From assembly GCF_037055275.1 (NCBI RefSeq), contig NZ_CP146343.1:506001-570000 (forward strand): a stretch of 64,000 bases of DNA, in the 5' to 3' direction. The DNA comes from Pseudomonas sp. ML2-2023-3. Its GTDB lineage: Bacteria > Pseudomonadota > Gammaproteobacteria > Pseudomonadales > Pseudomonadaceae. Below, in pieces: positions 37,380 to 41,927 of the stretch. Both the position numbers and the translations under genes were made by a program. Within the stretch, counting starts at the first letter, position 1, and each line of letters starts with the position of its first letter. Below the pieces are notes generated by a model. The model was given only the letters and a program-made list of their open reading frames with translations. It was not told the origin of the DNA and did no database searches.

Positions 37380-37553
37380 TCAGCCCTTGATCCTGTAGCC
37401 TCCACCTTTAGCGCCTTCATGCAATGCAGACTGAATACGCTCATACAATGCATTGGCTTCTAACGTAGTAATGGAACGCGAACAGTCCCGCAATACCACC
37501 CGCAACAAAACGTTTTCTTGCCCGGGTAAGAGCCCGAGCCGTTCAATCGCCTA
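37380..37553 (-). pseudogene. Untranslated remainder of the PheS-like ligase after an in-frame TAG
   Basis: The codon after residue 322 of the PheS-like ligase is TAG (37551-37553). The same frame then stays open for 56 codons, starting AIERLGLLPGQENVLLRVVL and including TTLEANALYERIQSALHEG, and ends at TGA (37380-37382). This is the expected second half of an FDX-ACB domain (the R...T..E.N...ERI..AL.EG pattern). A single C-to-T change of CAG would create the stop. With readthrough the protein would be 379 aa. Confidence 0.8.
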
Positions 37554-38519
37554 CACAGGCAATTCATCCATGGCCCAGCGCCCTTTGACTTGCATTTCTT
37601 CAATCCAGGCCGAGCGATCACCTGCAGCAAGCAACATCTTTTCGGTCAGCACCTCTTCACTCAAGCCCGGCGCCACTGCAAGGGAGATATCACGCGTGAT
37701 GCAAGGCAACCGCGAAACGGCCTGCCAGGGTTGCAAATCATGCATCTGGGCCTGAACGCGCTCATCAGGATCCCGTAACAAGCGAATATCGGGTATGCCC
37801 TTGCGTAACATGGTCAGGCGATCCAAGCCCATGCCCAATGCCAGACCACCATGCCTGGCAGGATCAATACCCAGTCTTTGCAAAAGCGAGGGTGCAATAC
37901 ACCCACACTCAAGCACTTCGACCGGTTGCTCCTGCGAGATCAGGTTTACCTCGATTCCGCCTTCGGTGTAGTGGTGCGGACTGTCACTGTATACCCACGC
38001 CATGTTGGGTACCGCGCACTCAAGGATGTCACCCACCAGTCTCAGCAAATGCGTACGGGTTGAGAGTGCTGGATCGCCGAGCAGCCAGATATCCATCTGA
38101 TGTGGCTCAGCACAGTGCCATCTGTCGCGGCTATCGCGCCTGAATGTAATACCGGGAGCCGCCAACAGGATGATTTCCCCTGCTTTACGGTCCTGCGCGA
38201 CACGTTGCAAAGCCCGTGGGATTTGACTGGTTGTCTGAGTACGCAACAGCGAATGCTCATCCACCCAGCGCGTATGCTCACTGCCTAACGTGACCTCTGC
38301 AGGGTCATAGCCAAGCAAACCATAGTTCTCTTGCGCCGAAACAATTCGCGGGCCTCTCAGGATCTGGCCAGCAGGCCAACCACGGCTCACCAGGCCCTCA
38401 AGTACCTCACTTAACAAAAGCCCGATGGCATGCGCTGGATTGTCCACTTCTGTGAGATCGCAAAGATCTAGAGCATTGCTGACCGAAAGTGCACAAATAT
38501 ACTTTTTTGACGAAAGCAT
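37551..38519 (-). CDS. PheS-like class II ligase with truncated FDX-ACB domain (SrmL-like)
   Basis: 322 aa to the TAG. The core aligns by eye with PheRS alpha: LLRTQT (91-96), motif 2 APGITFRRDSRD with PHQMD (139-143) where PheS has FHQME, VEVLECGCIAPSLLQRLGID, and motif 3 GMGLDRLTMLRKGIPDIR (229-246). The N-terminal tRNA-binding coiled coil of PheS is absent, and the Phe-pocket segment FPFTEPSAEV is HHYTEGGIEV (182-191). An FDX-ACB domain starts near 268 (VSRLPCITRDISL) and is cut by the stop. AGGAG lies 6 nt before the ATG. I recall RefSeq using the name SrmL, PheS-related mystery ligase, for such proteins; unverified. It probably adenylates a carboxylate and joins it to a non-tRNA acceptor (inference). 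Confidence 0.8.
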   Translation of the reverse strand: MLSSKKYICALSVSNALDLCDLTEVDNPAHAIGLLLSEVLEGLVSRGWPAGQILRGPRIVSAQENYGLLGYDPAEVTLGSEHTRWVDEHSLLRTQTTSQIPRALQRVAQDRKAGEIILLAAPGITFRRDSRDRWHCAEPHQMDIWLLGDPALSTRTHLLRLVGDILECAVPNMAWVYSDSPHHYTEGGIEVNLISQEQPVEVLECGCIAPSLLQRLGIDPARHGGLALGMGLDRLTMLRKGIPDIRLLRDPDERVQAQMHDLQPWQAVSRLPCITRDISLAVAPGLSEEVLTEKMLLAAGDRSAWIEEMQVKGRWAMDELPV

Positions 38520-38832
38520 AACGACTCCTCGCCTGGATCACGGCAAATACCAATAAGTATTAAACAGAGTGCAAAATCTAGATCAGAAACGCTTTAACTC
38601 ACAACAGAGAAACAATAAAACCCTGAAAACAAGCCAAATATCAGACAATGCCTACATAAAATTCCTACACTAATATCCGAACTTGCTAAATGAGATTAAT
38701 ACAATAGAGAAACAATATAAAAACACATGAAACGTCACTTCAACCTGCCAATCATTAGCCCTAACATAGCAACCTCCTGACACGCTCAGGCATCCAACAT
38801 ACATGTCTTACACTGCACAGCGAGGATAAATA
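38520..38832. other. AT-rich divergent promoter region of the ligase/peptide locus
   Basis: Two lines counted by hand (38641-38760) are 33% GC, against 68% in a neighbouring housekeeping line (41401-41460). It separates the minus-strand ligase from the plus-strand peptide gene and must hold both promoters. Only tiny frames without ribosome sites were found: 17 codons at 38727 and 8 codons at 38803. No RNA gene was recognised. Confidence 0.6.
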
Positions 38833-38934
38833 ATGACTAACTCAACGCTACCAAAACCAAAATTAAACCGAACCACATCCGACCCGGACAACTTCGGATG
38901 GGCTCCACTTGCCTGGGCTTTCCAGCCAGATTGA
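38833..38934 (+). CDS. 33-aa peptide, candidate precursor or carrier peptide
   Basis: ATG at 38833 is preceded by GAGGA at 7-nt spacing, and the frame ends at TGA 38932-38934. The N-terminal half is Pro/Lys/Thr-rich and basic (MTNSTLPKPKLNR). The C-terminal half is aromatic, with two Trp, two Phe and an Asp end: DPDNFGWAPLAWAFQPD. There is no signal peptide and no Cys. A leader-like basic half joined to a distinct hydrophobic C-terminus is the usual shape of a ribosomally made precursor or scaffold peptide. It sits between a PheS-like ligase and an M29-peptidase-like gene. I know of no homologue by sight. Confidence 0.7.
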   Translation: MTNSTLPKPKLNRTTSDPDNFGWAPLAWAFQPD

Positions 38935-38993
38935 GTGGGTAATATAGACATGTGAGCGCCAAAACAAAGCAGACATATAAATTGGCGCCCACT
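38934..38993 (+). repeat. Nested inverted repeat between the peptide gene and the M29-like gene
   Basis: GCGCCAA (38956-38962) pairs perfectly with TTGGCGC (38982-38988), and AGTGG (38934-38938) pairs with CCACT (38989-38993). The outer pair starts at the last base of the peptide stop codon and ends 14 nt before the next ATG. There is no T-run, so it looks like an RNA structure affecting stability or translation of the downstream gene. Confidence 0.45.
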
Positions 38994-39007
38994 TCCCATT
39001 AGAGGGT

Positions 39008-39931
39008 ATGCCTGTGCCTGCCAATCACTTCCCTTTCAACTTAAAAGACGTGTGCATCGTCTCCGACAATAATGATTTTCTCCAAAGGTGTATTGCTCAA
39101 GGCTTTAATGCACAATCACTCAATAACATAGCGTTTCTTCCAGCGCAAAGTATCGTCTTTGCCTTTTGCAATGAAGCCGCCAGGCACACATTCAAAATTG
39201 CTAAGCAGACCCCTGCCAGAAAAAGTATTTTTTGTGCGGTCCACGTTTTTGAGTCGTCCGTCAGAAGTGCACTCTATGGGCTGGATCTTATCCTGAAGAG
39301 TGACTTTGACGATGCACTCCAAAAACAGCGGCTTGTCTTGACGCAGCTTGATACCTACAGGGAGTTCAGTTTGGACGGGAGCAATTCCAAGGCTCGCGTC
39401 ACTATTTCAGAGCAGGCCATCCCATACGCCATGATCGAAGAAGACATAAACAATGACTTTGTACACTCAATAGCTGAATTTTTTGAAGTGCACTATGCCC
39501 ACATGAATTCACATGCACCTTGCCCCTTCCAGTTTAACGGACACCTGACAATCTCTGGCATTCTCACCGTACTTAGAAAGTCTTCCACATCAACGGACAT
39601 CGCATTAAGGATAGCCCTTGAACATCTCACCCGTGATGTTGCACACCACACTGCATTCTTGACGGTGGAAAACAACATCCTCACTTCATTCCGGGTCAAC
39701 GATACAGAACACAAAGAATTACTAAACTGTGCGGCAGGCGCGCGAGGGTTAAAGCTCACAGAGTTTGCAGTAGGGGTGAATAATGCTATCGCACCGTTTA
39801 TTGATTATCGTATCAACTCTCAAATGAACGAAGGCATTAGCGGAGTGCATGTTGCATTAGGTGATGGCTCGTCGGGGTATCACATCGACTTTCTAAGCCC
39901 TGGTGTGGTGTTCACTCCCACACCAGGGTAA
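39008..39931 (+). CDS. Protein with an M29-metallopeptidase-like C-terminus
   Basis: 307 aa, cytoplasmic. The C-terminal half resembles thermophilic-type M29 aminopeptidases: TEFAVGVNNAI (Glu252), then SQMNEGISGVHVALGD (Glu275, His281), then GYHIDFL (His292, Asp294), matching the metal ligands E, H and HxD. The first metal Glu of M29 (GEVF motif) is not evident: that region reads HAPCPFQFNG. The protein is about 100 residues shorter than M29 enzymes and its N-terminus is unlike them. AGAGGG is too close to the ATG at 39008, so GTG at 39014 may be the real start. It could process or release a peptide-linked product, or be a noncatalytic relative. Confidence 0.65.
   Translation: MPVPANHFPFNLKDVCIVSDNNDFLQRCIAQGFNAQSLNNIAFLPAQSIVFAFCNEAARHTFKIAKQTPARKSIFCAVHVFESSVRSALYGLDLILKSDFDDALQKQRLVLTQLDTYREFSLDGSNSKARVTISEQAIPYAMIEEDINNDFVHSIAEFFEVHYAHMNSHAPCPFQFNGHLTISGILTVLRKSSTSTDIALRIALEHLTRDVAHHTAFLTVENNILTSFRVNDTEHKELLNCAAGARGLKLTEFAVGVNNAIAPFIDYRINSQMNEGISGVHVALGDGSSGYHIDFLSPGVVFTPTPG
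39898..39928 (+). repeat. 11-bp hairpin inside the last codons of the M29-like gene
   Basis: CCCTGGTGTGG and CCACACCAGGG are perfect inverted arms around a 9-nt loop. They encode the C-terminal PGVVFTPTPG and end at the base before the TAA. No T-run follows, so it is not a standard terminator, but the stem would cap the 3' end of the message. Confidence 0.55.
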
Positions 39932-40028: not shown

Positions 40029-41927
40029 TTACGAAGCCTGCACCCGGCGCTTTTCCGCCATTTTACTGCGGCTGTACAACACGATAATCGCCACAATGGC
40101 GACCGCCTGCGCAGCCAGCGAGTAGGCATCCGCGTGAATGCCCAACCAGTCGAAGTCAAAAAACGCGACAGGCCGCGTGCCGAAGATGCCCGCCTCTTGC
40201 AGTGCTTTCACGCCATGCCCGGCGAATACGACCGACAGGGCGCAAAGAAGGGCCGCGTTGATGCTGAAGAACAGCGCCAATGGCAATTTGGCCGAACCGC
40301 GCAGGATGATCCACGCCAACCCCATCAGTAACACCAGCGCCGTGGCGCCGCCCGCCAATACGGCGTTATGACCCGCAGGCCCGGCTTGCAGCCACAGGGT
40401 CTCGTAGAACAGGATCACTTCGAACAGTTCGCGGTACACCGAGAAAAACGCCAGGATCGCAAAACCAAAACGCCCGCCACCACTGACCAGACTGCTTTTG
40501 ATGTAGTCCTGCCACGCAGCCGCATGGCGGCGGTCGTGCATCCATACGCCCAGCCACAGCACCATGACGCTGGCGAACAAGGCCGTGCACCCTTCAAGCA
40601 GTTCGCGCTGGGCGCCGCTGACGTCGATGACATAGGCGGCCAGCGCCCACGTAGCGAGACCTGCAACCAGGGCCAATCCCCAGCCAATGTTGACGCTGCG
40701 CACCGCAGACTGCTGGCCGGTATTGCGCAGGAAAGCCAGGATCGCGGCCAGTACCAGAATCGCTTCCAGACCTTCGCGCAGCAAAATCAACAGGCCCGAG
40801 ATGTAGCTCAAGGTCCAGCTCAAGCCATCGCTGCCCAGCAGCCCGGCTGACTCTTTAAGCAAGGCCTTTGCGGCATCCAGACGCTGCTCGACTTGCTCGA
40901 TCGGTAAGCCGTCCTGCAATGACTGCCGATACGCCATCAGGGCTTTCTCGGTGTTTTTACGCACGTTGGCATCGACGTTATCCAGCGAGCTTTCAACCAG
41001 TTCAAAGCCTTCCAGATAAGCCGCTACCGACAGGTCGTAGGCTTGTTCACGGTCGCCAGCGCGGTAAGCCGCGAGGCTTTTGTCCAGGGTAGCGCTGGTG
41101 TAGTCAAGCAACTGCGCCGGACCGCGTTTGACTTGCGGCGGCTGCGCCCGTTGGGCACGGAAGGTCGCCGTCGCCTCGGGGCCTTCAGCCGCCAGCACTT
41201 CATTCGGAGTTTGACGGGCAAGATCCGCCAGATTGTAGGTTTTGTCGGCCTTTGCCGCAGCCGGGTCAGCACTCAAGCCTGCGATGTAAGTGGCCAGGTC
41301 CCAGCGCTGACGCTCGTCCAGCTGATCGGCAAACGAAGGCATGTCAGTGCCTTCGACACCCAGGCCCAACGTGTTGTAGATCGCGTAGAGGCTCAACCGG
41401 TCAAGGCGCTGTACATCGCGCAGGTTGGCCGGAGGCGGCGTCATCCCAAGGCTGGCGGGACCATCCCCGGCGCCGGTTTCACCGTGGCACACCGAGCAAT
41501 GCTGGGCATATAACGGCGCGCCACGGGTTGGGTCCGGGGTGATGGCAGGTGCCTGGCTGACCTCGTAGGCCACAGCCAGTCTGGCACCCAGTTGCCGCGC
41601 CTCACGGGCAACGGCAGTGCCGTCCTCACGCTGTTCGATGGCGGCTTGCAAGACGTTCACACCCCGAGCCAGCTCGGCTCGCTCAGGGCGCTCTGGCAGG
41701 CCCTCCATCAAGCCCTTGAGTACGGTCAGGAACTCCAGCTGCTCGCGGTACTCGGTTTCATCGATGACCTTCCCGTTCTCAACGGTAGGCGGATAGTCCG
41801 CACCGATGTAGTCGATCAGGTGCAGCGCTTGTGAGGCGCCTTCCGGGGAGTTGGCAGACACCGTAAGGCTGCACAACGCGAGCACTGGCAACATCAACCA
41901 GGCAAAAAAACGCGAGCGGGCGGTCAT
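40029..41927 (-). CDS. Cytochrome c/FTR1-family iron permease
   Basis: 632 aa with a signal peptide (MLPVLALCSLTVSA). A periplasmic section has one c-type haem site, QHCSVCHGETGAGDG, and an Ala-rich helical linker. About seven membrane helices follow, with the two FTR1 iron motifs, REGLEA and (Y)RELFE. FTR1 permeases import iron after oxidation of Fe2+; the fused haem domain may take the electron. No EfeO/EfeB genes are adjacent. A Fur-like sequence lies just upstream. The gene converges on the M29-like gene. Confidence 0.9.
   Translation of the reverse strand: MTARSRFFAWLMLPVLALCSLTVSANSPEGASQALHLIDYIGADYPPTVENGKVIDETEYREQLEFLTVLKGLMEGLPERPERAELARGVNVLQAAIEQREDGTAVAREARQLGARLAVAYEVSQAPAITPDPTRGAPLYAQHCSVCHGETGAGDGPASLGMTPPPANLRDVQRLDRLSLYAIYNTLGLGVEGTDMPSFADQLDERQRWDLATYIAGLSADPAAAKADKTYNLADLARQTPNEVLAAEGPEATATFRAQRAQPPQVKRGPAQLLDYTSATLDKSLAAYRAGDREQAYDLSVAAYLEGFELVESSLDNVDANVRKNTEKALMAYRQSLQDGLPIEQVEQRLDAAKALLKESAGLLGSDGLSWTLSYISGLLILLREGLEAILVLAAILAFLRNTGQQSAVRSVNIGWGLALVAGLATWALAAYVIDVSGAQRELLEGCTALFASVMVLWLGVWMHDRRHAAAWQDYIKSSLVSGGGRFGFAILAFFSVYRELFEVILFYETLWLQAGPAGHNAVLAGGATALVLLMGLAWIILRGSAKLPLALFFSINAALLCALSVVFAGHGVKALQEAGIFGTRPVAFFDFDWLGIHADAYSLAAQAVAIVAIIVLYSRSKMAEKRRVQAS

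Follow-up and report, generated by a model that had tools for sequence, protein, structure and literature searches.

The window analysed here, a stretch of 64,000 nucleotides from Pseudomonas sp. ML2-2023-3 (assembly GCF_037055275.1, contig NZ_CP146343.1, positions 506,001 to 570,000), contains between a YaiI-family gene (PF02639) and an FTR1 gene (PF03239) a 2.5-kb candidate cassette for a ribosomal peptide product. It is organized as a divergent pair of units: srmL, encoding a PheS-related ligase, on the minus strand, and the gene of a 33-residue peptide followed by a CgnB-like gene on the plus strand. An earlier sequence-only reading had described three genes around one AT-rich spacer at this place, and this layout was borne out; the much lower GC content that it assigned to the whole locus applies to the spacer and its right-hand side (spacer 0.38, peptide gene 0.50, CgnB-like gene 0.46; 5-kb flanks 0.58 and 0.60) but not to the ligase gene, which is mildly low (0.55). 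The features are as follows.

37551..38519, minus strand: srmL, PheS-related ligase, open frame of 322 residues up to an in-frame TAG (NF051887, PF01409, homologue P0002)
37380..37550, minus strand: srmL frame past the premature stop, same frame with the next stop at 37380; translation from the srmL start is not expected here
38520..38832, no strand: divergent spacer, GC 0.38 (alignment, nhmmer, GC)
38833..38934, plus strand: 33-residue precursor-like peptide MTNSTLPKPKLNRTTSDPDNFGWAPLAWAFQPD (14 homologous loci including the window's; ratio of nonsynonymous to synonymous changes, pN/pS, 0.17)
38952..38992 (hand-read coordinates), plus strand: hairpin between the peptide stop and the CgnB-like start (14 sequences, paired changes)
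39008..39931, plus strand: CgnB-type protein of 307 residues, ligands E160, E252, E275, H281, H292 and D294

The peptide and the CgnB-type protein

In a genus sample of 298 Pseudomonas genomes (SrmL counted over its cut-off, the CgnB-like gene at E up to 1e-10) the peptide gene was present in 14 of the 30 genomes with SrmL, the window's own counted, and its conserved reading frame marks it as a real gene, as the sequence-only reading had supposed. Thirteen of the peptides are readable as 33 residues from ATG; the fourteenth has 31, or 33 from TTG. The heptapeptide NFGWAPL is invariant in all of them, with all codons but that of Trp varying (pN/pS 0.17 over 21 codons), and nine of the ten consecutive residues of NFGWAPLxWA do not change; both Trp codons are invariant, a tail of five residues follows the second and last Trp in 14/14, and a Ser or Thr precedes the core in every case. 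Lys and Arg residues before the core number 5-7 in eight peptides and 2-3 in the other six, the window's among these.

Since the genome-wide search used the exact NFGWAPL codon pattern, more distant peptides would be missed; the pattern matched 15 of the 298 genomes, and the match in G002 as well as a second one in G047 were rejected as unrelated frames. A LAWAF peptide in a longer frame near the distant SrmL of L032 resembled a relative and was not counted, because this upstream frame appears again in L086 and L087, and in altered form in L097 and L099, and these loci yielded no CgnB-like open reading frame (ORF). Upstream of two CgnB-like genes without SrmL lie 25-residue peptides ending FG[YF]YPLTKW, upstream of a third a peptide ending AYW, similar to the crocagin core Ile-Tyr-Trp, and these peptides (L170, L171, L172) are possible further crocagin-like precursors; in the other six of nine such loci no precursor-like peptide was recognised. 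These six (L164-L169) lie, by eye, between a proline iminopeptidase-like gene on one side and hut-like genes on the other; a similar iminopeptidase-like gene also adjoins two SrmL-only loci (L041, L042; by eye).

For the 307-residue protein the CgnB/E fold was predicted, CgnB and CgnE being far nearer in fold than M29 peptidases. All six metal ligands of CgnB are present, matched by hand to the published numbering (offset 8), and none of them varies across the 34 aligned rows. PF26231 is precomputed for 120 listed of the 147 homologues; the window protein itself gave no PF26231 match in a Pfam search, the searched copy of which possibly lacked that model. No M29 family match was obtained in Pfam or NCBIfam at E up to 1, and an M29 peptidase as main role was rejected on the fold comparison. 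CgnB and CgnE are reported to bind the precursor peptide, with no aminopeptidase activity seen, and two of CgnB's metal ligands are changed in CgnE (PMC10070186). Because these nearest relatives are reported to bind peptide and no such activity was seen for them (PMC10070186), the trimming or release by an M29-like protein that had been proposed for this gene is unsupported.

A recurrent hairpin lies between the peptide gene and the CgnB-like gene: 77.5% of the cells were paired compared with 69.7% in shuffles, two-sided changes occurred in 7 of 13 pairs among 14 sequences (reached by 7 of 500 shuffles), and the covariation score was 0.260 versus 0.152 (reached by 0 of 500), the tested structure coming from one of the 14 sequences. 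Pair types were no more numerous than in the shuffles (275 of 500), and RNAalifold predicted just 7 pairs, its covariation term being weak (−0.29). Single-sequence folding z-scores from simple letter shuffles were −4 or lower in eight of 14 and −1.1 to −2.1 in five, including the window's (−1.8), the stretch of L023 being cut too short. The one Rfam match lay far under the gathering score and was taken as chance.

The ligase and its premature stop

The ligase belongs to SrmL, the name that the sequence-only reading had used for proteins of this kind: it scored 365 bits against NF051887 (curated cut-off 300), matched PF01409, and remained below the cut-offs of phenylalanyl-tRNA synthetase (PheRS; TIGR00468 86.9 versus 237.45 bits; mitochondrial TIGR00469 76.1 versus 258.35 bits). 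The left limit of the gene had been set at 37380, which is the end of the frame beyond a premature stop that was missed: an in-frame TAG at 37551-37553 closes the open frame 38519-37551 after residue 322, at profile position 301 of 349 of NF051887, and the protein is not full-length. P0002, an intact database protein of 379 residues, is 100% identical over these 322 residues, and the relative G244 (L043), by eye with the same flanking genes, has srmL without the stop. The window's SrmL copy is probably impaired; its truncation makes an impaired pathway likely in this strain, and a working one in relatives whose genes are intact.

The intact homologue P0002 reached 429.2 bits against NF051887 (profile 3-349) and stayed under both PheRS cut-offs (TIGR00468 86.1 bits, TIGR00469 81.6 bits). 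It carries in one chain PF01409 (56-258) followed by the FDX-ACB domain PF03147 (269-368; 20.1 bits, below the cut-off of 31.1, and 36.3 bits in P0344), which the TAG of the window's gene cuts about in half with loss of the second half. The predicted fold of P0002 residues 2-375 matches mitochondrial PheRS in its tRNA-bound open form (3tup_A) over the whole length; sequence comparison and model of intact homologues agree on a class II core with an appended FDX-ACB domain. In bacterial and mitochondrial PheRS two Phe residues stack on the substrate ring, as described in PMC3275996; in SrmL, His182 and Tyr184 stand in their place and are invariant in 28 of 28 aligned sequences. A back-up PheRS was rejected since these pocket residues are changed. 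SrmL and mitochondrial PheRS have one domain order and may share an origin. A literature search on SrmL and PheS-related ligases gave, among the matches listed, no paper about the family by title.

Distribution of the three genes

Among the 298 genomes SrmL occurred in 30, the CgnB-like gene in 24 and the peptide in 14, and both proteins were found together in 15, two of these with only a fragment of the CgnB-like gene. All 14 peptides adjoin SrmL, and the peptide was never found without it; the association of SrmL with the peptide gave a Fisher p of 4e-16 and that with the CgnB-like gene 2e-11, both treating the genomes as independent, which they are not. The co-occurrence of the three genes exceeds chance and extends to diverged species (SrmL identity down to 62%, 13 loci), in one genus as far as searched; within that limit the sequence-only reading survived the refutation it had proposed for itself, namely a lack of co-occurrence beyond close relatives or an unconserved peptide frame. 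The cassette sits at different places in different clades (gene names by eye): in the interval from Rep/xpt to acetyl-CoA hydrolase, next to queC, next to a chemotaxis receptor gene, and, as in the window, between the YaiI and FTR1 genes.

Mapped on the SrmL tree (without L002, several long branches being flagged), presence and absence of the peptide required at least nine changes. At the Rep/xpt-acetyl-CoA hydrolase site, L014/L134 has SrmL alone and is nested on the tree among three-gene relatives. The roughly 150 nucleotides of spacer nearest srmL are retained in 9 of 17 loci without peptide (alignment, nhmmer), the remaining part of the spacer accompanying the peptide gene, and CgnB-like remnants are kept in three; because of these two kinds of remains, loss of the peptide module with retention of SrmL is favoured. 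A block TTTCAGAA-N-CTACAG-N-CTACA(C)AAATAACC upstream of srmL (window 38520-38690), largely conserved in three-gene loci, lies in or near the spacer part that several SrmL-only loci keep and is possibly a regulatory site. One genome (G221; L007, L037) has two SrmL genes, neither with a peptide.

Outside the genus a contig scan gave 379 stretches encoding an SrmL relative, ordinary PheS perhaps among them; the best 80, with at least 49% identity to the query, derive mostly from myxobacteria, actinomycetes and gammaproteobacteria, a few from others, and one from Pseudomonas (L087). A phylum sample of 398 genomes gave a match at E 1e-60 or better only in the window's own genome. The largest neighbour clusters of an all-against-all comparison were rejected as SrmL partners, as they looked like frames overlapping srmL. 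As far as examined, the partnership of SrmL, peptide and CgnB-like gene is a Pseudomonas feature. In the SrmL loci L086 (Acidithiobacillus marinus) and L087 (Pseudomonas indoloxydans) the upstream frame is identical letter for letter, and a recent transfer of SrmL is likely; transposase-like genes lie nearby in L032, whose position in the genome is that of L087 (by eye).

In agreement with the sequence-only reading, the interval bounded by the YaiI and FTR1 genes showed no PheT, transporter or regulator. A family scan of eight flanking proteins gave VTT, fatty acid hydroxylase, YaiI, FTR1, LysE, mechanosensitive channel and ABC ATPase, with one protein left without match; the FTR1-family protein (window 40029-41927) carries a cytochrome c domain at its N-terminus.

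Candidate function and comparison with known systems

We tentatively favour, with somewhat less than even confidence, the view that the product of the three-gene cassette of peptide, CgnB-type protein and SrmL is a ribosomal peptide natural product. The peptide would be held or presented by the CgnB-type protein, in the role proposed for CgnB and CgnE with respect to CgnC, while SrmL would use ATP to activate an amino acid, probably one other than phenylalanine, and attach it to the peptide. Sequence comparison and structure models provide the basis of this view, namely the conservation of the peptide, a predicted CgnB fold with its complete metal-ligand set, the linkage of the genes and the correlated divergence of the two proteins; from these we infer the binding of the peptide, direct ligation to it, the amino acid used, any participation of a tRNA and the attachment site.

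Several results weigh against this assignment, and the close correlation of SrmL distances with those of the CgnB-like protein (r 0.96, 13 loci) is uncorrected for species relatedness. Half of the SrmL genomes (15/30) have neither peptide nor CgnB-like gene, and SrmL shows in all 15 no internal stop over profile 2 or 3 to 349; pN/pS is 0.08-0.25 for SrmL pairs including copies without CgnB-like match, and the CgnB-like gene occurs without SrmL in 9 of the 298 genomes. The best 80 stretches (up to 8 kb on each side of SrmL, several shorter) yielded no CgnB-like ORF, and the cassette contains no protease, transporter or oxygenase. The leader is not net positive in 4 of 14 peptides, that of the window having 3 Lys/Arg versus 2 acidic residues. 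The FDX-ACB domain kept in SrmL points to tRNA binding and away from direct ligation to the peptide, and the truncation of the window's own copy counts likewise. Cytosolic PheRS has Asn and Tyr in place of the two Phe residues and yet uses Phe, according to PMC3275996, and a substrate other than Phe is therefore only probable for SrmL.

The main competitor, in our estimate unlikely though less so than those following, is that SrmL is self-contained with a cellular role of its own (e.g. as an enzyme resembling aminoacyl-tRNA synthetases but handling a non-standard amino acid), the peptide and CgnB-type protein being a separate two-gene module, similar to those of ribosomally synthesized and post-translationally modified peptides (RiPPs), that only draws on its product or shares its promoter region. 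Where peptide and CgnB-like gene are absent SrmL is kept intact, and it must therefore have a use independent of the peptide; L014/L134 retains SrmL without the module at the chromosomal site shared with L017, L019 and L027. It is also widespread and usually without recurrent partner, as no CgnB-like gene lies near it in the 80 loci and no Pfam family occurred in more than three of 108 adjacent ORFs (56 of the 80 loci), ORF picking in GC-rich DNA being crude. Against a wholly separate module stands the strict association of the peptide with SrmL (14/14) despite several different cassette sites. Dependence runs one way, the peptide accompanying SrmL while SrmL needs no peptide. This fits SrmL as the source of an activated amino acid, either as free adenylate or as charged tRNA, that the peptide module uses.

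Leader or ribosome-arrest peptides such as TnaC and trpL offer a different explanation for the 33-residue frame, which would then control the CgnB-like gene via the hairpin. Its shortness, the two invariant Trp codons and the succession of hairpin and next gene would suit this role, which we nevertheless consider improbable: nine of the ten residues of NFGWAPLxWA are invariant with varying codons (an arrest peptide could show the same conservation), precursor-like peptides also precede CgnB-like genes without SrmL in three of nine loci, and in the crocagin pathway the precursor is bound by CgnB. Synthetase paralogues beside antibiotic genes are a known pattern, and SrmL, divergent from the module, might be a spare synthetase shielding the producer from a toxic peptide product whose target is PheRS or some other synthetase. 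The Phe pocket residues, which differ from PheRS in 28/28 aligned SrmL, the lack of a PheT partner in the locus and the commonness of SrmL where no peptide was found make this quite improbable. The carrier-peptide pathway of the sequence-only reading, with an M29-like protein trimming or releasing the product, is very improbable, as CgnB and CgnE bind precursor and showed no aminopeptidase activity; its analogy to peptide aminoacyl-tRNA ligases (PEARLs) is weak because neither a PEARL or LanB-type ligase nor a releasing protease was recognised in the locus or the eight scanned flanking proteins.

The natural-product reading can be extended to a class of RiPPs, in a form that we regard as rather unlikely in its entirety: a bacterial relative of mitochondrial PheRS, with its specificity shifted to another amino acid and acting as a general bacterial amino-acid ligase, would attach this amino acid to a Trp-containing peptide that a CgnB-type metalloprotein holds. 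The Ser or Thr before the core could be the acceptor, and the metal site would then eliminate the ester, for which the tRNA-dependent lanthipeptide dehydratases are a model. If the natural-product reading holds, the crocagin peptide-binding family would extend to a pathway without oxygenase in the cassette, and a mitochondrial-type PheRS architecture would be reused outside translation. SrmL, the PheS-related mystery ligase of NF051887, is widespread in bacteria of several phyla, and the cassette would be a first handle on it: in Pseudomonas its partners are a defined peptide and a member of a protein family for which precursor binding is known, which makes the substrate directly testable.

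Among known systems, PEARLs extend a carrier peptide with aminoacyl-tRNA, further modifying enzymes and a protease acting subsequently, as PMC9303977 describes; the PEARL and 3-thiaglutamate pathways and the cassette are alike in that an amino acid is (here as proposed) joined to a ribosomal peptide. Compared with the M29 aminopeptidases PepS and AmpT, the window's CgnB-like protein is about 100 residues shorter. Crocagin CgnB and CgnE (PDB 6zsv, 6zsu; PF26231) share 18% identity with it in structural alignment; crocagin-type clusters contain two CgnB/E copies and a CgnC-like dioxygenase, whereas the window's genome has a single copy and no dioxygenase gene lies between the flanking genes, and the crocagin core Ile-Tyr-Trp contrasts with a core without Tyr-Trp and five residues past the last Trp (14/14). 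Monomeric mitochondrial PheRS and the intact SrmL homologue have a common domain order, class II core plus FDX-ACB, and a common predicted fold at 19% identity, SrmL lying far under the TIGR00469 cut-off; the Phe-pocket positions are replaced by His and Tyr and a nearby Gly by Glu. Elsewhere SrmL (NF051887) was found with no recurrent partner, whereas here it stands with the peptide and the CgnB-like gene.
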